A stretch of DNA of 23,843 nt, from IMG/VR virus record IMGVR_UViG_3300027881_000079, positions 1 to 23,843 of that record. One strand, written 5' to 3'. Below the pieces are notes generated by a model. The model was not told where the DNA came from and did not search any database. It worked only from the letters and a program-made list of their open reading frames with translations. Made by a program: the position numbers and the translations under genes. Below, piece after piece: positions 3,738 through 20,595 of this stretch. Position 1 is the stretch's first letter, and each line of letters starts with the position of its first letter. The stretch comes from a virus.

Positions 3738-4196
3738 CTACCAGCTAATTTCCCACAGAACATTGTCAAAGTCGCCCTCGACCTCATTCTCGTACTCGTC
3801 AACGATCAACTGCATTAGCTCAAAGCCTTTGGTGTAGTCTTCGCTACCATCATAGGACATATATCGTCCATTTTCATCAGGATCGTCGCGCTCTTCCAAC
3901 CACATTTTAAAGCCAAGGGCAATATAGACATCATTGCTTATCCTCTCGCTGATAAGATTCCACAATGAATCTTTGTGACTTTCTAATCGGACGGGCTCCC
4001 GCCATGACGCCTGTGCTTCCTCGTCTGAAACAATAAGGTCTGGATACTTGCGCTCAATATGACGGACTACTTGCAAGAAGTTGAGAGTATACGTAGCCTT
4101 AGGCTCTGGGCGCTCGCACTTCGAGCACCAAGGCACGTAATACATCTCTTTCTGTCCACCACAAGTGTCGCAAACTTCATCGAGATATCTAGGCAT
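3738..4196 (-). CDS. Zinc-ribbon hypothetical protein, 152 aa
   Basis: Four cysteines near the N-terminus, CDTCGG (residues 9-14) and CSKC (24-27), form a probable zinc ribbon. The rest is acidic and helical (HIERKYPDLIVSDEEAQ, KMWLEERDDPDENG, LMQLIVDEYENEVEGDF). No catalytic motif is visible. The start ATG 4196 overlaps the end of the HNH gene by 8 bp, so both are expressed from the strong promoter at 4782-4810. Downstream a weak hairpin (GGTAG/CTACC) followed by TTTTTT at 3719-3742 may end the transcript. Confidence 0.65.
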   Translation of the reverse strand: MPRYLDEVCDTCGGQKEMYYVPWCSKCERPEPKATYTLNFLQVVRHIERKYPDLIVSDEEAQASWREPVRLESHKDSLWNLISERISNDVYIALGFKMWLEERDDPDENGRYMSYDGSEDYTKGFELMQLIVDEYENEVEGDFDNVLWEISW

Positions 4197-4755
4197 TATT
4201 CAGATTCCTTTTTGGAGGACGCATCTCAATGAGATGCTTAGGCCAAGAGATGTATGTCAACCAGCTCTCATCACGAATCGTGATAGGAAAACGTTGCCTC
4301 TTTGCCATTAGCTGGTAATAGTTAGGCTTGGTAGGAAGCTTCTTAGGACGAATGGTCTTGTTTGAACCCTTGCTGTGGTTGCACTTCTTACATGCAGCAA
4401 TAATGTTAGTCCAGTTCGTCTTACCACCGTGTACCCTAGGAACTACGTGGTCAAGCGTAAGTTGACTTGCGGGCGGCTTGGCACCGCAAAGCTGACAGGT
4501 AAAGAGGTCACGTAGCAGGACGTTGGTACGGTTGTACTTGACCTGCCTGTTCCACTTCACAAATTCGCTGCACATCACGATAGAAGGCACCTTCCAAGTC
4601 ACGCTAGGAGAATGTACTTCCCAGTTCTCGTACTCTTCAATTACTCGTACCTTGTCTTGATACGCAAGGCGAATCGCTGTTTCCCAGCTAACCGCTGATA
4701 GCGGCACAACTGACAATGGGTTGCCGTCTGCGTTCAAAATTAATGTGTCACTCAT
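4189..4755 (-). CDS. HNH endonuclease family protein, 188 aa
   Basis: An HNH fold with structural zinc is clear: CQLC (87-90), LDHVVPR with His103, HGGKTNWTN (109-117) and ACKKCNHSKG (121-130). The N-terminal part (LILNADGNPLSVVPLSAVSW, then VHSPSVTWKVPSIV) matches the stand-alone HNH family common in bacteria and phages, usually annotated simply as HNH endonuclease, so the domain order and length are normal. The activity would be nicking or cutting of DNA; whether it acts as a homing enzyme, in host DNA degradation or in packaging is not shown. ATG 4755 has AAGGA about 8 nt upstream and a consensus sigma70 promoter, suggesting early expression. Confidence 0.85.
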   Translation of the reverse strand: MSDTLILNADGNPLSVVPLSAVSWETAIRLAYQDKVRVIEEYENWEVHSPSVTWKVPSIVMCSEFVKWNRQVKYNRTNVLLRDLFTCQLCGAKPPASQLTLDHVVPRVHGGKTNWTNIIAACKKCNHSKGSNKTIRPKKLPTKPNYYQLMAKRQRFPITIRDESWLTYISWPKHLIEMRPPKRNLNNA

Positions 4756-4781: not shown

Positions 4782-4810
4782 ATTATAGCAGGCACAAATC
4801 CTAATGTCAA
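4782..4810 (-). promoter_or_regulatory. Perfect-consensus sigma70 promoter of the HNH operon
   Basis: On the minus strand TTGACA (4805-4810) and TATAAT (4782-4787) are both exact consensus and separated by 17 bp. The HNH start lies 27 bp downstream of the -10. An ATCAAnnACTTA element is located 15 bp upstream of the -35. Confidence 0.85.
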
Positions 4811-4825
4811 GCTCTATGTTCGTGC

Positions 4826-4837
4826 ATCAACGACTTA
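4826..4837. promoter_or_regulatory. ATCAAnnACTTA element upstream of the HNH promoter
   Basis: ATCAACGACTTA followed by GCG is a copy of the 12-bp element also found before three other sigma70 promoters. Only one half-site is seen here, without an inverted partner. It shares the trailing GCG with the copy at 14569. Confidence 0.5.
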
Positions 4838-5010: not shown

Positions 5011-5571
5011 CTAGCTAAGGGAATTCTGGACAATTCTCTTGGAGGCTACATCGTATTTAGCTTCATATGCTGCGCGCCTTTTAGCACTCCATGGTCTACT
5101 TTTGTTACCACGAGCGTTAGTGTTGCCCAACTTTTTGATGCTCATTACTTCTTTTGTTTCTTCACTATGCGTCTTGCCTTTATTGCCAGCGCCGTTTGTG
5201 TTCCCGACCCTAGCATTTGCACGACACATATCTTCAGTATAAACTCTGTTTCTCAATGACTCTGTACGTTTGCGGTTTGTTTCTTCACTGTAGCAATTTG
5301 TACCAATCATATTTGTTCTATTGTAGGACTCGGGATTTGTTGCAGCCCCAGCCTCACTTAAATATTTGCCTTCAACAAGACGTATTTCGTCATTGTCATA
5401 GTCGCCAGTAAATAAAATTTCTCGGACAAAGTTCTCTTGCCCATACTTGGCTTCGGCGGCTTTTAATACTTCGCTTGAATGTTTATATCCGTCGTCAATT
5501 GTTCCTTTATGACTACCAATATACCACTTGCCGTTGACTAGGTTAGTCCACTTATAAACAAACCCAGTCAT
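5011..5571 (-). CDS. GIY-YIG homing-endonuclease-type protein with NUMOD3-like repeats
   Basis: The 186-aa protein opens with a GIY-YIG nuclease domain (about residues 1-90): FVYKWTNLVNGKWYIGSHKG, where VYK replaces GIY and YIG is intact. C-terminal to it are two repeats of the type GNTNGAGNKGKTHSEETK and GNTNARGNKSRPWSAK (about 123-168), typical of NUMOD3 DNA-binding modules of free-standing phage homing enzymes. It would cut a specific intron- or element-free site and spread by recombination. The start ATG overlaps the stop of the 54-aa gene by one base. Its last codons (IVQNSLS-stop) mirror the end of that gene (IVQDFPI-stop), a sign of insertion with end duplication. Confidence 0.85.
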   Translation of the reverse strand: MTGFVYKWTNLVNGKWYIGSHKGTIDDGYKHSSEVLKAAEAKYGQENFVREILFTGDYDNDEIRLVEGKYLSEAGAATNPESYNRTNMIGTNCYSEETNRKRTESLRNRVYTEDMCRANARVGNTNGAGNKGKTHSEETKEVMSIKKLGNTNARGNKSRPWSAKRRAAYEAKYDVASKRIVQNSLS

Positions 5572-9199: not shown

Positions 9200-10450
9200 T
9201 TATCCCTTTACGCAAACGACCTGACGAAGCGTATGTACAGCCTCAACCAAATCCTTCTGTGCGTCCATTACTGCGTCAATGTCCTTGTAAGCAGCAGGAG
9301 TCTCGTCAATCACTCCAGCATCCTTACGACACTCAATACCAGCCGTAGCCTTTTCGTGATCCTCGACTGTAAACAATCTCTTAGCCGCTGATCGTGAATG
9401 TGAACGACCTGCTCCGTGAGAGCAAGAGTTAAATGAATCAGCGTTACCCAATCCGCGCACGATGTACGAACGCGCACCCATTGATCCTGGGATGATTCCG
9501 TAGTCGCCTACGCGAGCCCGTACTGCGCCCTTGCGCGTAACGTGTACGTTAGCACCAAAATGATTTTCCATTGATACGTAGTTGTGATGGCAGTTGATAG
9601 CTTCCTTAGTAATCAAGAACGGAGGCAGCTTGCGAGTTAACGCAGCAATAACAAGCTCCATCATAACCTGACGGTTGCGGTACGCAAAGTCCTGCGCCCA
9701 GCCGACAGCCTCAACGTAATCGTCGTAGTAAGTTGAACCATCTACGAGATACGCAAGATCCTTGTCAGGTAAATGGATAAAGTGTCGCTCCATTTCCTTT
9801 TTAGCAATCTCAATAAAGTAACGACCAATGCAGTTGCCTGGGTTACGTGAACCTGAGTGTAGCATGATCCATACGTCGTCGTTCTCATCCAAGCAAAGCT
9901 CGATGAAGTGATTACCGCCACCTAATGTTCCAAGCTGACGATATGTACGCTCCTCAAGGTCACGCCCCATTGACTCAAGCTTAGGATGCTTTGCAACCAT
10001 AGACTTGTATCCCGTCTCGATCTGAGCGTGAGTATTCTTAAGTAACGTATTTGTCTTGTTGTGATACTTCATAGACAGGCGCTGTCGCGTATGCTGGTCG
10101 TGACCAACAGGAACAAAACGCTCGATCTCACCACGCACGTTTGTCAACGTATCAGGAAGATCGTTTGCCGTTAATGAAATGCGTACGGCATTCATGCCAC
10201 AGCCTATGTCTACACCGACTGCGGCAGGAATGATCGCACCCTTGGTCGCGATGACCGAACCAACCGTCGCACCTTTGCCCAAGTGAACGTCTGGCATTGC
10301 CGCTACATGCTTATGAATAAACGGTAGCGACGCAATGTTCTTAAGCTGATCCCGAGCCTGTGACTCAAAAGGAACGCCCTTTGTCCAAGACTTGATTAGA
10401 CCTTGTCCACCCAAGCCCTGCATTACTTCAAAATTATCTTTCTTAGCCAT
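9200..10450 (-). CDS. rtcB: RNA-splicing ligase RtcB
   Basis: The 416-aa protein joins RNA 2',3'-cyclic phosphate or 3'-phosphate ends to 5'-OH ends using GTP and manganese. All core motifs are present: AMPDVHLGKG (51-60), GVDIGCGMNAVR (79-90, metal ligands Asp81 and Cys84), LGGGNHFIE (176-184), LHSGSRNPG (197-205), CHHNYVSMENH (287-297), PGSMGARSY (321-329) and NSCSHGAGR (341-349), where His345 aligns with the histidine that carries GMP. Length is typical. No archease or RtcA is in the window. In phages it could repair tRNAs cut by host defence nucleases (inference). It follows the VWA-peptidase gene and two small genes in one minus-strand run. Confidence 0.97.
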   Translation of the reverse strand: MAKKDNFEVMQGLGGQGLIKSWTKGVPFESQARDQLKNIASLPFIHKHVAAMPDVHLGKGATVGSVIATKGAIIPAAVGVDIGCGMNAVRISLTANDLPDTLTNVRGEIERFVPVGHDQHTRQRLSMKYHNKTNTLLKNTHAQIETGYKSMVAKHPKLESMGRDLEERTYRQLGTLGGGNHFIELCLDENDDVWIMLHSGSRNPGNCIGRYFIEIAKKEMERHFIHLPDKDLAYLVDGSTYYDDYVEAVGWAQDFAYRNRQVMMELVIAALTRKLPPFLITKEAINCHHNYVSMENHFGANVHVTRKGAVRARVGDYGIIPGSMGARSYIVRGLGNADSFNSCSHGAGRSHSRSAAKRLFTVEDHEKATAGIECRKDAGVIDETPAAYKDIDAVMDAQKDLVEAVHTLRQVVCVKG

Positions 10451-11169: not shown

Positions 11170-12567
11170 CTAGTCCTTAGCAGCCTCTTCGTAATGTACG
11201 GTCTCGCCAAACGGTGCTTCAATCTCAGGGTACGTATGTACCAAAAATACCGTCGGGCACCAGTGCTCGTCACCCCAGCCACCACACGGGCAACCGTCAG
11301 TTGCTACGATGAGTTGGTCAGGAACCAAATCCTCTTCCTTCATCATCGCCCAGTTGCACTCAAAGTACGTGCCACCGCCGCCTTGCAGTTGAAAGTCGTC
11401 AACTTCGTCAATCGTGTCAGGGCCGTACTCGTGAATCTTGTACGTCTCTGTGTCAAAACACCAAGCCCGCAGCCTAAAGTCTGCAAACTGTTCCATAATG
11501 CCCTTGACCTCACCCATAATGTCTCGCAACATTTGATTGCTCATAGAGCCAGATGTGTCAATTGCAATATCAACGCTAACCATGTCGTCGTTGTCCATTG
11601 CAGGCAAGTAGTAATTGCTGCTCATGCTCTTACGCGACTGGCGCATCCAAGTATAATCTGACTTCAAAGTTGACTGTACAACATTGTTCAAATACTCGCG
11701 CCAGTCAATCTTGCTGTCTGTCCATTCGTCGATCAGTTGCTTAACGCCCATCGGAACGTTGCCTGCCTGACCGCTTGCAGTTTCAGCTACCTTTGCAGCG
11801 TCCATGACCGCTTTACGTATTTGGTCAGGGATACGGTCTAACTGTTCTTGAGAGATCGGGACAGGGCCAGTCTTGCCGCTGTGATCCTGTCCAGTGCCGC
11901 CACAAGATGTGCATTCGCCATCTTCGCCGTCACCTTTACCAGTGCCGCCACAATCTTCACATTCACCTGCTTCGCCGTCACCTTCACCTGGGCCTGAGTT
12001 CGGATCCATGTGCATGTCGTGTCCTGACTGACCGCTGTCTCCGTTTTCTTCCTTGTCCTTCTTCAGAAGCTCATAAACTTCCTCGGACGGCATGCCTCTG
12101 TACTTCTCTTCACAAAGTACACCTGGCTGGCCTGCAAATTCTTTCTTGAACTTCTTGTAGCCTGCTGGATTGATTTCCTTCAACAGTTCTTCAAACTTCG
12201 GATCCATCATCGTCTGACTAGACGGGAATGAACCAATGCTGAGGTCTTTCAGTTCAAGATTAATAACGTAGTCGCCTGCCATGTTGTGCAGCATTGGATC
12301 GCGACCGTCGCGTCGTGTTTGGTGGTCATAAACGTTATGCATCACTTCGTGAGCAATAACGAACTTTGTTTCATCAAGCGAACAGCGATCAATAAAATCC
12401 CTGTTGTAATACATGTGAACGAAATCGGTTGCAGCCGTCGGACACCATGCAGTTGCATCAATAAGTTTGAGGCGCATTGCGAGGACGCCGAGGAATACGC
12501 AGTCGTTATGGATAAAGTCAATACGGGCTTTAACCAACTTTTCTTCTGGGGTCCACTTCTGTGCCAT
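11170..12567 (-). CDS. Metallopeptidase-like and VWA domain protein (DUF2201 type), 465 aa
   Basis: The N-terminal domain (about 1-150) has a zinc HExxH motif, HEVMH at 73-77 with DH after it and GDYVINLEL downstream, as in the putative metallopeptidase domain of the DUF2201 family. A Gly-rich acidic linker holds two CxxCGGTG units (Cys203, 206, 219, 222), like half of a DnaJ zinc finger. The C-terminal VWA-like domain (about 328-465) keeps a MIDAS: DTSGSMS (337-343), Thr400 in GGGTYF, and Asp424 in VATDG. In bacteria such proteins pair with a MoxR AAA+ ATPase, and the next gene upstream encodes one. Start ATG 12567 is preferred to 12576 because GAGAGGA is too close to the latter. It has its own consensus promoter, so early expression is likely. 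Confidence 0.88.
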   Translation of the reverse strand: MAQKWTPEEKLVKARIDFIHNDCVFLGVLAMRLKLIDATAWCPTAATDFVHMYYNRDFIDRCSLDETKFVIAHEVMHNVYDHQTRRDGRDPMLHNMAGDYVINLELKDLSIGSFPSSQTMMDPKFEELLKEINPAGYKKFKKEFAGQPGVLCEEKYRGMPSEEVYELLKKDKEENGDSGQSGHDMHMDPNSGPGEGDGEAGECEDCGGTGKGDGEDGECTSCGGTGQDHSGKTGPVPISQEQLDRIPDQIRKAVMDAAKVAETASGQAGNVPMGVKQLIDEWTDSKIDWREYLNNVVQSTLKSDYTWMRQSRKSMSSNYYLPAMDNDDMVSVDIAIDTSGSMSNQMLRDIMGEVKGIMEQFADFRLRAWCFDTETYKIHEYGPDTIDEVDDFQLQGGGGTYFECNWAMMKEEDLVPDQLIVATDGCPCGGWGDEHWCPTVFLVHTYPEIEAPFGETVHYEEAAKD

Positions 12568-12596
12568 TTGTGCCATTCCTCTCAGTTTATATTCAT

Positions 12597-12625
12597 ATTA
12601 TACGTGTTTCTGGCCCTAACGTCAA
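12597..12625 (-). promoter_or_regulatory. Near-consensus sigma70 promoter of the VWA-peptidase/RtcB operon
   Basis: On the minus strand TTGACG (12620-12625) and TATAAT (12597-12602) are separated by 17 bp, about 30 bp upstream of ATG 12567. It can drive the VWA-peptidase gene and the run down to RtcB and beyond, since no terminator was seen between them. Confidence 0.8.
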
Positions 12626-12654
12626 TAGCTGACGCCACTTATATGCCTAAAGAT

Positions 12655-12720
12655 ATCAAACACTTACGATTAATTTGATGCTGTAGAATCAATGACTTAC
12701 AGGGCCTGTAAGTTGTTGAA
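12655..12720. repeat. Three ATCAAnnACTTA elements, two in inverted pair
   Basis: Copies are ATCAAACACTTA (12655-12666), ATCAATGACTTA (12688-12699) and the inverted TAAGTTGTTGAA (12709-12720, one mismatch). The last two form a dyad whose inner arms are extended by ACTTACAGG and CCTGTAAGT (12695-12713). The cluster lies between the MoxR terminator and the VWA-gene promoter. A regulatory protein site is the simplest reading. Confidence 0.6.
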
Positions 12721-12725
12721 AGTTT

Positions 12726-12765
12726 AAAAAAAGCCGCCCTCGGAGCATAAGTCCTTAGGCGGCTC
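12726..12765 (-). terminator. Rho-independent terminator after the MoxR gene
   Basis: Read on the minus strand, AGCCGCC pairs with GGCGGCT around a 19-nt loop, which has a possible inner GGA/TCC stem, and runs straight into seven T residues. It lies 31 bp past the MoxR stop codon, separating MoxR from the VWA-gene promoter so that the two partner genes are transcribed independently. Confidence 0.8.
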
Positions 12766-12795
12766 AGGGCGCAAGTCACATTGCACCATTAAACC

Positions 12796-13926
12796 TTAAG
12801 CCGTGCTGACGATCCACTTCTGATACTCTTTGTAGAACTTCGTAAACGTCGGAGTCTCAGAGTTGAATTCAATCGCATACTTGCGAAGGGCAACAACCGA
12901 TCCCATGATTACCATTTCTTTGGTAAAGTGAGGGTTAGCTGCAGGACCGCCCATCATGAAGGCGAGGAAAGTATCAGTAACCTTGTCCCAATCCTTCGAC
13001 GTCTTCTTGTCGTCACTCTTGTACTCATCCTGCATCTGCTCTAATACGTAGCACATGCCGATCACCAAAGAGTATTTAGCAGAGACATCCACATCCTTGT
13101 CTGCTTTCAGGGAAGTTACGCGACCCTCAAGAATGTCACGCGGATCAGGCAGCTTGCCCTTCAGGCGTCGATGCTGCATGAATTCACCTGCAAGACCGAG
13201 ACCGACTGTGCCAGCAACCATAGACTGGTTGAGGTTTTCAGGCAGGTTGTCGTCAAGCAGTTCGCCTACAAACGTCCAGGAGCGCGGCGTAGCAAATGCC
13301 TTGCCACTCTTGCGCGGGTTGAAGTCGAACAGTGCGTGATTGTGTGCGGTCAAGTAACCGATAACATCAGCGTTAACGCGGTGCTTGATTGCCCAATCCT
13401 GCCAGTCGTTAAAGTTCTCTTTCATTTCAAAGTGAACAAAACGGTTAGCAAGTGCGGAAGGCATGCGGAAAGTTACAGCCTTATCCGTTTCCCTGTTACC
13501 AGCAGCAACAATGCTGACGCCAGCAGGAAGATGATACTCGCCTACTCGGCGGTTCAGGATAAGCTGGTATGCAGCGGCCTGTACCGACTGAGGAGCGGCG
13601 TTGATTTCGTCGAGGAAGAGAATAGCATTGTCCATGCCACTGCCTTCTTGCGGAAGCTCACTCGGAGCCGCCCACTTCATCGTCTTGGATTCATGGTTGT
13701 AATAAGGGATGCCCTTAATGTCAGTCGGCTCCATGAGCAGGAGGCGAAGATCAATTACGGGACGTTCTTGGCGGTCACCGATCTGTTGGATGATGTCCGA
13801 TTTACCGATTCCTGGCGGTCCCCAAATCATGCACGGACGATCTACTTCCATGCAGCGTTCGATTACCTGGATTGCCTCGCTAGGGCGTACGGCGTTGAAT
13901 TCAGCGTTGAGGTCTGTTTGTGCCAT
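12796..13926 (-). CDS. MoxR-family AAA+ ATPase, 376 aa
   Basis: The AAA+ core shows Walker A GPPGIGKS (36-43), Walker B AILFLDEINAAP (101-112, Asp106 and Glu107), sensor 1 VAAGNRE (140-146) and an arginine-finger region LANRFVHFEM (159-168). The 'lid' and extra C-terminal helices follow to 376. MoxR ATPases use ATP to remodel or activate partner complexes and are usually encoded beside a VWA protein, as here. The partner is most likely the metallopeptidase/VWA protein at 11170. The gene is monocistronic, with a promoter at 13978-14006, a ribosome-binding site AAGGAACGCACC before ATG 13926, and a terminator after its stop. The target in phage infection is unknown. Confidence 0.92.
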   Translation of the reverse strand: MAQTDLNAEFNAVRPSEAIQVIERCMEVDRPCMIWGPPGIGKSDIIQQIGDRQERPVIDLRLLLMEPTDIKGIPYYNHESKTMKWAAPSELPQEGSGMDNAILFLDEINAAPQSVQAAAYQLILNRRVGEYHLPAGVSIVAAGNRETDKAVTFRMPSALANRFVHFEMKENFNDWQDWAIKHRVNADVIGYLTAHNHALFDFNPRKSGKAFATPRSWTFVGELLDDNLPENLNQSMVAGTVGLGLAGEFMQHRRLKGKLPDPRDILEGRVTSLKADKDVDVSAKYSLVIGMCYVLEQMQDEYKSDDKKTSKDWDKVTDTFLAFMMGGPAANPHFTKEMVIMGSVVALRKYAIEFNSETPTFTKFYKEYQKWIVSTA

Positions 13927-13977
13927 GGTGCGTTCCTTAGTAATGTGACTTGCTATGAATCATTTCTTAGTATGTGT

Positions 13978-14006
13978 ATTATACGAGCATTGCAACCAAA
14001 ATGCAA
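13978..14006 (-). promoter_or_regulatory. Sigma70-type promoter of the MoxR gene
   Basis: On the minus strand TTGCAT (14001-14006) and TATAAT (13978-13983) are separated by 17 bp. The leader to ATG 13926 is about 45 nt. The ATCAAnnACTTA dyad lies 47 bp upstream of the -35. Confidence 0.75.
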
Positions 14007-14053
14007 CCACTATATTCCTTTTAGAAACAAGTGGTTACGTGATCTCTAATAAT

Positions 14054-14077
14054 ATCAAGCACTTATAAGTTATTGAT
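14054..14077. repeat. Perfectly abutting inverted pair of ATCAAnnACTTA
   Basis: ATCAAGCACTTA (14054-14065) is followed without spacer by TAAGTTATTGAT (14066-14077), its inverted match at all defined positions. It sits between the MoxR promoter and the hairpin after the 106-aa gene. This is the cleanest of the dyads and best defines the 12-bp half-site. Confidence 0.65.
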
Positions 14078-14106
14078 CTATAAGGGAATAGAAAATTTTT
14101 CCATAA

Positions 14107-14130
14107 GAATGGCGCCGAGCGGCGCCATTC
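14107..14130 (-). terminator. Strong hairpin after the 106-aa gene, probable terminator
   Basis: GAATGGCGCC (14107-14116) and GGCGCCATTC (14121-14130) form a perfect 10-bp GC-rich stem with a GAGC loop, 20 bp past the stop codon at 14151. On the minus strand it is followed by TTATGG rather than a long T run, so it may be an inefficient terminator or an RNA-stabilising end. Confidence 0.55.
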
Positions 14131-14150
14131 ATGCAGAGGTTGTGACAGAA

Positions 14151-14471
14151 TTAGGCCGTAGCTTCTTCTTCTGTTGCGTCTTCAACAATCTCAAGGTTAG
14201 TGCCATCTTCGGCTGGGGTCGCTGTTGCAGCAACCAACTCTTCGTACAGTGCTGGAACAGCCTGTGCGATTGAGAAACCGCCTTCAATGTTGCGCGTAAT
14301 ACCGTTCACCGTCAAGGTGATATTCCACCTGCGCTGAGTAACGGTAGGACGTACTGCAAATGTCGTTCCGATAACCTCACCGTCAAGCAAAAGTTCCCAT
14401 ACTGGCATTGCATCGCCTGAGGTAGGACATACCCGCGTCTCTTCTGTTTTACGTCTTGTGATTTTCGCCAT
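14151..14471 (-). CDS. Hypothetical protein, 106 aa
   Basis: A basic N-terminus (AKITRRKTEETR), a beta-rich core (VWELLLDGEVIGTTF, RRWNITLTVNGITRNI) and a helix (FSIAQAVPALYEELVA) precede an acidic, Ala-rich tail (VEDATEEEATA). No family is recognised. The gene stands alone with its own consensus promoter at 14521-14549, a CAGGAG site before ATG 14471 and a hairpin after it, so it is likely strongly and early expressed. It shares its upstream element with the MoxR, VWA and HNH genes, which makes it a candidate member of the same pathway or regulon. Confidence 0.65.
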   Translation of the reverse strand: MAKITRRKTEETRVCPTSGDAMPVWELLLDGEVIGTTFAVRPTVTQRRWNITLTVNGITRNIEGGFSIAQAVPALYEELVAATATPAEDGTNLEIVEDATEEEATA

Positions 14472-14520
14472 TATGGTTCTCCTGTATATAATGGTACCAG
14501 TTTCTATACTGTTACTGCAT

Positions 14521-14549
14521 ACTATACAGCACTCAACAGTTTATGTCAA
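14521..14549 (-). promoter_or_regulatory. Near-consensus sigma70 promoter of the 106-aa gene
   Basis: On the minus strand an exact TTGACA (14544-14549) and TATAGT (14521-14526) are separated by 17 bp, about 50 bp upstream of ATG 14471. An ATCAAnnACTTA copy begins 20 bp upstream of the -35. Confidence 0.8.
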
Positions 14550-14568
14550 CCACAACATGTCTAATGGA

Positions 14569-14606
14569 ATCAACAACTTAGCGCAGGATGGCGGTAAGTG
14601 CTTGAA
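14569..14606. repeat. Inverted pair of ATCAAnnACTTA elements
   Basis: ATCAACAACTTA (14569-14580, followed by GCG as at 4826) is paired with the inverted TAAGTGCTTGAA (14595-14606, one mismatch) across a 14-bp spacer. The second half ends next to the stop codon of the 121-aa gene. It lies just upstream of the 106-aa gene promoter. Confidence 0.55.
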
Positions 14607-14972
14607 TTAGTTGGACTTCTTTTCGTAAATTTCACCAAGCCAGCGTTTCACATCCCCGCCCTGTAGCTTGAGCAGGAAGGATTGCTTCATTGTGAATAGA
14701 TATAAAGTAGATTGGTTGGATGGTAGGAAGTAAGGCCAAGCCACATGATTTTTTAAGGTCATCAATTCTCGGCCTGTTAGTTTTTCTTCTAGTGGAAATT
14801 CTTCGTGATCGTAGATATCACGACAGGCTCGGTATCCCGCCCAGCGCAAACGTAACGAACTGACTGATTGGAACATAGCAAAATCAAGTTCTTCGTCTGT
14901 CCCAACATGACCAGCTTCACGTAATTCATCTATTATGAATTTCTTAAGAGCTATGCCGTGTTCATCAAGCAT
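14607..14972 (-). CDS. Hypothetical protein, 121 aa
   Basis: A mostly helical soluble protein: LKKFIIDELREAGHVGTDEE, a central WAGYRACRDIYDHEEFP and a C-terminal LKLQGGDVKRWLGEIYEKK. No family is recognised. The start ATG 14972 overlaps the previous stop by 8 bp. It is the last gene of the run beginning at 15258, before the regulatory gap at 14472-14606. Confidence 0.6.
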   Translation of the reverse strand: MLDEHGIALKKFIIDELREAGHVGTDEELDFAMFQSVSSLRLRWAGYRACRDIYDHEEFPLEEKLTGRELMTLKNHVAWPYFLPSNQSTLYLFTMKQSFLLKLQGGDVKRWLGEIYEKKSN

Positions 14973-18250: not shown

Positions 18251-18416
18251 CTGTCTTTACTACCGTTAGCATTGGCCTATTACTAGCACCAAGCTTCTCC
18301 TCAATTCGTCTAATCATTCGTTCGTACTTCCACCAACGATCTGTGCCTTCTTCTTGATTGACTTGCTCCATCAATAATGCAAACCATATAACAAAAAGTT
18401 CGTTATCGGTAAACAT
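18243..18416 (-). CDS. Hypothetical helical protein, 57 aa
   Basis: The short gene reads MFTDNELFVIWFALLMEQVN, then WWKYERMIRRIEEKLGASNR and ends VVKTDE. It is amphipathic and helical. The ATG 18416 overlaps the first base of the QueE stop codon, and the 3' end overlaps the next gene by 8 bp. No family is recognised. Confidence 0.6.
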   Translation of the reverse strand: MFTDNELFVIWFALLMEQVNQEEGTDRWWKYERMIRRIEEKLGASNRPMLTVVKTDE

Positions 18417-19330
18417 TAAGTACCAATCTGATTACCCCATATGTACGCATGTACTCGCGCTGATACGTTATAACCTCTTCTGATTGTTTCTTCGACAACT
18501 TCAACTGCGTCAAAATCTTCTTGTGCTTCTACTGTAGCGCCAACGGGCATGATCCATATAGGCCAATGTACGCCAGCATTACGGAACAAGTCAACTGTCT
18601 CTTCAAGTTCTTCCCACGCCTCTGGTTGATTACATACAACAAACTTTAGTTGTCCGTGATCGCTAACATCCTGATAACGTTTTACAGTCATTGGGTGGAT
18701 AGCTTTTGCTGCTCGTTCTCCACTTGTAAGTCGTAGCTTAGGTGAACATGACCAGAACCAATCGCCACCACTACGCTTATACGACGCAACTAATTGTGCA
18801 AACTCATCTGTTATGATTTGTGTGCCATTTGTTTCAATAGTAATATTGATAGGCAAATTGCCACGCTTTTCAAATTCTTGTAACACTTCGATTTGTGCTA
18901 GTTGTGTTCGTTCAATCATTGGCTCGCCACCAGTCATACATAGGTGTACGTCTTTAAGTTCGCGGCCATTGTTTAATATGAATGAGCCGTCTTTGTTGCC
19001 CCTAAATGTTTTTAGTTCGTCTTCCAATGTGTCTACAATTTGCCCTGCTGTCTTGTCAGGGCATAAGTGTCTAAACTTCTTGCTCCAACTATAACTAGAG
19101 TCACAACCATATTCCCAAACAGGCAGGTCTTCAATACGCTTAACAGTAGATATATCAAAGTCTTTATAAGGTAAGATATGTGTGCTACGCTTTTCAGGAA
19201 TCTCTTGCCCGAATCCGCTGCATTGCAGATTACAGAGGAACCAGCGAAGCCATACAGTTGGCGAGCCCGTGAACTCGCCCTCGCCTTGAATTGACGTAAA
19301 TATTTCGCTATATTTGTATTTGTTACTCAT
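18416..19330 (-). CDS. queE: Radical SAM 7-carboxy-7-deazaguanine synthase (QueE-like)
   Basis: The 304-aa protein should convert 6-carboxytetrahydropterin to 7-carboxy-7-deazaguanine, a step toward queuosine and deazaguanine DNA bases. It has the QueE N-terminus (EIFTSIQGEGEFTGSPTVWL, 9-28), TGGEP (133-137), ETNGT (166-170) and SPKL (196-199). The cluster-binding cysteines are unusual: Cys33 and Cys37 (FLCNLQCSGF) are separated from Cys76 (GCDSSYSW) by 38 residues, where normal QueE has two. CDSSYSW aligns with the usual CDTxYSW, so all three ligands survive. The start at ATG 19330 gives an 8-bp overlap (ATGAGTAA). No queC, queD or preQ0 genes are in the window; another role, such as cell-division inhibition known for E. 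coli QueE, is possible. Confidence 0.88.
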   Translation of the reverse strand: MSNKYKYSEIFTSIQGEGEFTGSPTVWLRWFLCNLQCSGFGQEIPEKRSTHILPYKDFDISTVKRIEDLPVWEYGCDSSYSWSKKFRHLCPDKTAGQIVDTLEDELKTFRGNKDGSFILNNGRELKDVHLCMTGGEPMIERTQLAQIEVLQEFEKRGNLPINITIETNGTQIITDEFAQLVASYKRSGGDWFWSCSPKLRLTSGERAAKAIHPMTVKRYQDVSDHGQLKFVVCNQPEAWEELEETVDLFRNAGVHWPIWIMPVGATVEAQEDFDAVEVVEETIRRGYNVSARVHAYIWGNQIGT

Positions 19331-19469
19331 CATTTGTTTCCATTTTTTCCACTGTAATACATGACCCCGCAAAATTTAATTGATCCTCAATGAACTCTAC
19401 ACAAGCTGCGTCGTGTTCTTCTTCAGTCTCGTATCCATCAAGCCATAAATCAATTACAAATTTTGTCAT
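19323..19469 (-). CDS. Hypothetical acidic protein, 48 aa
   Basis: The short gene encodes MTKFVIDLWLDGYETEEEHD and ends ITVEKMETNDE, a strand-helix-strand outline typical of small regulatory folds. ATGA overlap (19466-19469) links it to the P-loop-like gene upstream, and its stop overlaps the QueE start by 8 bp, which fixes the QueE start. No family is recognised. Confidence 0.6.
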   Translation of the reverse strand: MTKFVIDLWLDGYETEEEHDAACVEFIEDQLNFAGSCITVEKMETNDE

Positions 19470-20227: not shown

Positions 20228-20595
20228 TTTATACCTTTAAGCTTATCTATCATTATACACTTTCTTACTACGTCTGTCAAGACTTCAGGAGTAAGTGGAG
20301 CATTTTCAGCTTCACTAATTAACGCTTTTAATATACGTGCTTCCCATTCTTCTCTGCTTTGTTTTATAGCAGCAATTTTCTCAACTGACCGAGTGATAGC
20401 CTGTGTAAACATTTCTGCTGCATCGTCAGCTTTATCCTCTTGATGCCAAGTTACCTGTCCGTTACTGGCGATAGATAATATTTCTTGACCGTTACTGTCT
20501 TGTATGCTCACGATGTCAGGTGGATTTTCAAAAGTTTGGATATAGTAGTCTGTGTTTTCTTTAATGTCCCACACGCCGTCAATTGGTTCAGACAT
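20224..20595 (-). CDS. Hypothetical protein, 123 aa
   Basis: A middle of strand type (PDIVSIQDSNGQEILSIASN, then GQVTWHQEDKADDAAEMFTQ) followed by a long helix (ITRSVEKIAAIKQSREEWEA) recalls short phage proteins that I have seen with an 'EIL-I-x-x-x-G-x-V' motif, of unknown function. The end VLTDVVRKCIMIDKLKGI is faintly similar to the C-terminal module shared by the proteins at 20914, 21769 and 23480. Overlap with the next gene is 8 bp. Confidence 0.6.
   Translation of the reverse strand: MSEPIDGVWDIKENTDYYIQTFENPPDIVSIQDSNGQEILSIASNGQVTWHQEDKADDAAEMFTQAITRSVEKIAAIKQSREEWEARILKALISEAENAPLTPEVLTDVVRKCIMIDKLKGIK

Follow-up and report, generated by a model that had tools for sequence, protein, structure and literature searches.

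What kind of element occupies the gaps before three neighbouring genes of an uncultured phage, and what might it do there? The DNA analysed (the window) is an entire IMG/VR virus record of 23,843 bases, whose likely genes lie nearly all on the minus strand. A first-pass annotation, made from the letters alone, had described the gaps before a MoxR gene, a VWA gene and, in part, a 106-aa gene as one repeated cassette of hairpin, dyad, promoter and single gene, and had suggested that these genes are independently acquired modules resembling those of T4-type phages.

The locus and its genes

Its proteins have their matches in Pseudomonas phage PA5oct and in other jumbo phages; judged by them, the window is a piece of an uncultured jumbo phage akin to PA5oct. 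Megablast with 12 kb of the window gave no match among known phages, and a scan of viral contigs with one single MoxR sequence found nothing; relatives of MoxR in viral contigs were searched with an alignment of five MoxR proteins. The three genes are as follows.

11170..12576, minus strand: VWA / DUF2201 metallopeptidase-like partner of MoxR (phrog_1314), 38.5% identical to PA5oct
12796..13926, minus strand: MoxR-type AAA+ ATPase (phrog_1297), 52.7% identity to the PA5oct ATPase
14151..14471, minus strand: 106-aa orphan gene, without Pfam, PHROG or phage relative

PA5oct carries a QueE-like gene, a structural protein, an exonuclease, small genes, MoxR and VWA in that order, and the order exo-P164-P97-MoxR-VWA recurs in dozens of related contigs, among at least 80 related viral loci found with the five-protein alignment, as well as in PA5oct. 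MoxR and VWA are therefore backbone genes, which removes the ground for calling them independently acquired modules; in this comparison of gene order the 106-aa gene is the exception. No relative of it was found in any library searched (Pfam, PHROG, phages) or at the related viral loci and, as far as these searches reach, it alone of the three is an orphan. Elsewhere the window encodes an RtcB RNA ligase (9200-10450), a QueE-like radical SAM protein (18416-19372), an HNH endonuclease (4189-4755) and a homing-endonuclease-like protein (5011-5571).

Layout of the three promoter gaps

All three gap layouts are read on the minus strand, and each contains a sigma-70 promoter with 17-bp spacing.

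12597..12625, minus strand: promoter of VWA, TTGACG-17-TATAAT, 11/12 consensus
13978..14006, minus strand: promoter of MoxR, TTGCAT-17-TATAAT, read from the sequence, with a weak -35 box (3/6)
14521..14549, minus strand: promoter of the 106-aa gene, TTGACA-17-TATAGT, 11/12 consensus
12726..12765, minus strand: intrinsic terminator after MoxR (VWA gap), -21.2 kcal/mol, then U7
14107..14130, minus strand: strong hairpin after the 106-aa gene (MoxR gap), perfect 11-bp arms, z -4.08, without a U run

Hairpins, motif copies and promoters could thus be located much as the annotation had drawn them, and the shared layout stands. The hairpin or terminator is present in the MoxR and VWA gaps, whereas the 106-aa gap has two inverted motif copies and a promoter without a terminator. 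The hairpins look like ordinary terminators. Nor do they belong to the element that recurs elsewhere: in the 60 nt upstream of 90 promoters carrying the motif the mean folding z was -0.41, with 6 of the 90 below -2. The description of each unit as a single gene fails for VWA because further genes start within 3 bp after it.

The motif itself is concentrated in these gaps. TCAAnnACTTA has eight copies in the 23.8 kb, all eight inside four promoter gaps, and ATCAAnnACTTA, allowing at most one mismatch, is found 8 times where 2.4 would be expected, a count reached by 1 of 100 shuffles. With a 29-bp profile trained on other phages, leaving out the window and its first-found MoxR kin, the seven best scores in the window (14.3-21.9 bits) lie without exception in the three gaps; the score that follows them is 5.3, and the maximum in shuffled windows is 8.2. 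The sites, with their profile scores and the weak copy beside them, are listed by position.

12639..12667, minus strand: IHF-like site C2 upstream of VWA (core TAAGTGTTTGAT, 12666-12655), score 21.8, 29 bp from the -35 box
12672..12700, minus strand: IHF-like site C1 upstream of VWA (core TAAGTCATTGAT, 12699-12688), score 21.9, 62 bp from the -35 box
12709..12720, plus strand: weak inverted motif copy TAAGTTGTTGAA, outside the top profile scores
14010..14038, minus strand: IHF-like site B3 upstream of MoxR (core TAACCACTTGTT, 14037-14026), score 14.3, 19 bp from the -35 box; picked up by the profile alone and missed in the first-pass annotation
14038..14066, minus strand: IHF-like site B2 upstream of MoxR (core TAAGTGCTTGAT, 14065-14054), score 18.2, 47 bp from the -35 box
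14065..14093, plus strand: IHF-like site B1, inverted, facing the end of the 106-aa gene (core TAAGTTATTGAT on plus), score 21.2
14553..14581, minus strand: IHF-like site A1 of the 106-aa gene (core TAAGTTGTTGAT, 14580-14569), score 20.8, 19 bp upstream of the -35 box
14594..14622, plus strand: IHF-like site A2, pointing away from the 106-aa gene (core TAAGTGCTTGAA on plus), score 16.1, overlapping the end of the 121-aa gene

Each gap has one in-register site (A1, B3 and C2, at 19, 19 and 29 bp). B1 and A2 face the opposite way, B2 and C1 lie further upstream, and each of these four is a full 29-bp match; the dyads are therefore paired sites. What had been taken for one dyad element, and what in the MoxR gap appears as a 24-bp palindrome (ATCAATAACTTA/TAAGTGCTTGAT), is a set of separate directional sites, seven in all, part inverted and part tandem.

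Two perfect 12/12 sigma-70 promoters with 17-bp spacing also lie on the minus strand, at 4782-4810 and 20252-20280. The former precedes the HNH endonuclease gene and has a degenerate motif copy 15 bp upstream. This copy in the fourth gap (4826-4837) lacks the W, stands at a gap of 15, scores 3.0 and is probably no site.

Recurrence in other phages and helical phasing

Scanning IMG/VR with TAAGTNNTTGAT followed at 12-42 bp by TTGAC-N18-TATAAT found at least 120 stretches with the site ahead of a sigma-70 promoter; counts from the viral scans are lower bounds, and the matches listed are not a random sample. In nearly all matches listed the motif lies 19-21, 29-30 or 39-41 bp from the -35 box, and among the matches listed, after removal of near-duplicates (n=91), the phasing is strong (Rayleigh R = 0.756, p ~3e-23, best period 10.4 bp). 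Distances thus differ by whole helical turns, and those in the window (19, 19 and 29) do likewise. A rearranged motif, TAGTTNNTGAAT, when combined with this promoter, matched 10 times in the whole viral collection, unphased. The original pattern gave 52 matches in 257 Gb of bacterial and archaeal genomes, also unphased (p = 0.91) and nearly all without the extended consensus. The viral phasing, set beside these poor and unphased controls, shows that the arrangement is real and characteristic of phages. We rejected the motif as a bacterial regulon, the matches in bacterial genomes being unphased chance.

Closer to the window, a site of at least 12 bits lies upstream of MoxR in 12 of 78 relatives, against 0 of 78 in a coding control, the sites lying at about -106 to -134 and 11 of the 12 sharing one orientation. 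What varies among these relatives is the site itself, which, when present, keeps one position and mostly one orientation. VWA relatives have it in 2 of 66 cases, and two loci (L216 and L218) carry inverted site pairs before both MoxR and VWA. Among other strong promoters at the same loci 9 of 97 have a site (shuffled, 0), and the site therefore marks a subset of promoters. No excess of the motif emerged in 16 named phages, among which were T4, PA5oct and two Pelagibacter phages; we count this against the assignment to IHF made below.

The annotation had also proposed to look for the same gap next to unrelated genes, and very similar elements indeed precede many unrelated genes in other phages. 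Among 71 downstream proteins scanned were 12 of phrog_249 (CobS/MoxR-type ATPase), 3 of phrog_459 (peptidase), 2 of phrog_1297 and 1 of phrog_1314; the rest were rIIA-like proteins, phosphoesterases, homing endonucleases and unknowns. We take the phrog_459 peptidase to be of the VWA/CobT type, an assignment also supported by its position adjoining CobS in Pelagibacter phages. Genes downstream of the element are thus often MoxR/CobS-type ATPases or their VWA/CobT-type partners, and the carriers span jumbo to T4-like phages.

The site matches the IHF consensus

IHF (Integration Host Factor), a DNA-bending protein of the host, recognises WATCARNNNNTTR, and most strong IHF sites have an A-tract on the WATCAR side, making a site of ~35 bp (PMC8421141). 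With the positions left free in the scans included, the core of the phage site reads TAA-N4-TTGAT-W, the reverse complement of WATCARNNNNTTR. Although the first scan had not imposed it, 95-100% of sites have A or T as the W that follows TTGAT. When four core positions were left free, GT stood there in 74 of the 104 matches listed; the remaining 30 non-GT sites were phased too, and for the newly found non-GT set p = 5e-5. When the first base was varied, TTA was far the commonest, a few TTG copies were in phase, and TTC and TTT resembled background. An AT-rich block begins 10 nt past the W, a fixed distance in all three spacing classes, and longer spacers have more AT tracts about every 10.5 bp until the -35 box. 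Both features expected of an IHF site, the core and the AT-rich arm on the WATCAR side, are thus present, and the motif looks like an IHF site. Within the window, A1, B2, C1 and C2 match the consensus core exactly, B1 lacks the W and B3 has TTGTT. Counting against this assignment, core positions 4-5 hold to G and T more strictly than the NNNN of the published IHF consensus would imply.

The 14-mer also occurs in Burkholderiales, where 7 of 29 loci with it have a tRNA, in 6 of these within ~30 bp of the motif. Some copies abut tRNA 3' ends and one adjoins a partial tRNA copy; this is the usual setting of integrase sites and speaks for IHF, though it is suggestive only. In one genome (G125, loci L372 and L376) a full tRNA-Met and a partial copy lie 5.3 kb apart with the motif after each, as though they marked both ends of an integrated element.

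Two further genomes carry many copies. In a 3.7-Mb Burkholderiales genome (G117; for example L276, L279 and L282) the 14-mer is dispersed in 114 copies, most of them TAAGTATTTGATTT with AT-rich sequence after it, against zero copies of the reversed control, a weak control in bacteria because it contains TAG, which coding sequence avoids. Another genome (G259; for example L274, L277 and L283) has ~50 copies within two kinds of dispersed repeat, many at contig ends. We rejected both as evidence for a regulon, the copies being these genomes' own dispersed repeats.

Proposed mechanism and alternatives

Computation shows here that the site exists, that it is phased, that other phages carry it too and that it is specific when set beside controls. 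We infer that IHF is the binder and activation its effect, and likewise the timing in infection. Host IHF probably bends the upstream DNA and, together with phased A-tracts, activates these promoters. Each gap would offer one to three host IHF sites ahead of its sigma-70 promoter. A sharp bend made by IHF at the in-register site, assisted by the AT-rich tracts between site and promoter, would turn the correct face of the upstream DNA towards RNA polymerase and so raise transcription. The extra inverted or tandem copies may give a tighter wrap or a second bend. A gene of the HU/IHF family was sought in 18 records, mostly fragments and including the window and PA5oct, and none was found, which fits the use of host IHF. 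Two features count against this mechanism: neither the inverted sites nor the copies lying 47 and 62 bp upstream have a place in the in-register scheme, and the in-phase site of MoxR is off consensus and paired with a weak -35 box.

A known precedent is the activation of glpFK by IS5 via an IHF site and phased A-tracts, which a 5-bp insertion abolishes and a 10-bp insertion leaves intact (PMC2753651). In both systems in-phase A-tracts come after an IHF-type site ahead of a sigma-70 promoter, and both are tied to helical phase. They differ in that the IS5 site is borne by a transposon ~215 bp upstream, whereas the phage site keeps a fixed register roughly 50-90 bp upstream and turns up in phage after phage.

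Alternatively, a phage-encoded activator might use the motif as its operator and, as CRP does at class I promoters, contact the alpha C-terminal domain of RNA polymerase, here from positions near -62, -72 or -82. At class I CRP-type promoters activator sites are centred at ~-62, -72 and -82, in one-turn steps, and the phage motif occupies the same registers; such an activator is also favoured by the pairing of motif and sigma-70 promoter in phages, a pairing no commoner than chance in bacterial genomes, and by the conservation of the core G and T beyond what the published IHF consensus requires. However, the motif is asymmetric, with no CRP palindrome, and fits the full IHF consensus down to the W and the AT-rich arm; the same 14-mer lies beside tRNA genes in bacteria, and an unsystematic look across carriers from jumbo to T4-like phages identified no shared regulator gene. 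We consider a dedicated phage activator unlikely.

The two remaining explanations make the hairpins the functional part. T4-type phages reportedly contain early-promoter stem-loop cassettes (Arbiol et al. 2010) that ferry accessory genes between phages; in such a cassette a conserved stem-loop lies beside an early promoter and the flanking genes are exchanged. Repeated promoter-containing gaps between phage genes, hairpin and promoter together in two of the three gaps and an element that precedes unrelated genes elsewhere all recall this arrangement. By this definition, however, the likeness breaks down on both counts, as the recurring element has no conserved stem-loop and no clear enrichment of upstream hairpins, and its neighbours MoxR and VWA belong to the backbone and keep their order among relatives, L216 and L218 having that order with the same sites in place. 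A gene-ferrying cassette is thus very unlikely here. It is also very unlikely that read-through transcripts use the inverted copies as RNA hairpins, whether for termination or for processing, even though folds of ~-11 kcal/mol (z ~-3.5) are predicted at two gaps. The inverted copies differ at their central dinucleotide, so in every gap a 2x2 mismatch would break the RNA stem, which no U run follows, at one and the same point; these unpaired dinucleotides speak for DNA sites, and against stem-loop cassettes as well. Moreover, the window pairs show no compensatory changes, and most carriers among other phages have a single motif copy.

Host IHF thus remains the binder we favour. A further proposal goes beyond the promoters themselves: that in distantly related uncultured phages, jumbo and T4-like, the MoxR/CobS-type ATPase and the VWA/CobT-type protein that partners it have repeatedly come under a switch worked by host IHF, stereotyped and helix-phased, such that expression of the pair follows the growth state of the host. 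We offer this tentatively, as possible though somewhat doubtful.

IHF-assisted promoters are already known, case by case. If the reading given here is correct, a stereotyped IHF-promoter form with three permitted helical registers would be common across many uncultured phages and would show a recurrent tie to the poorly understood pairing of MoxR/CobS with VWA/CobT. It would also supply a simple sequence rule for spotting such promoters and a hint to the hosts (IHF-bearing bacteria, possibly Burkholderiales), and would give a direct handle on the timing with which phages express this ATPase pair.
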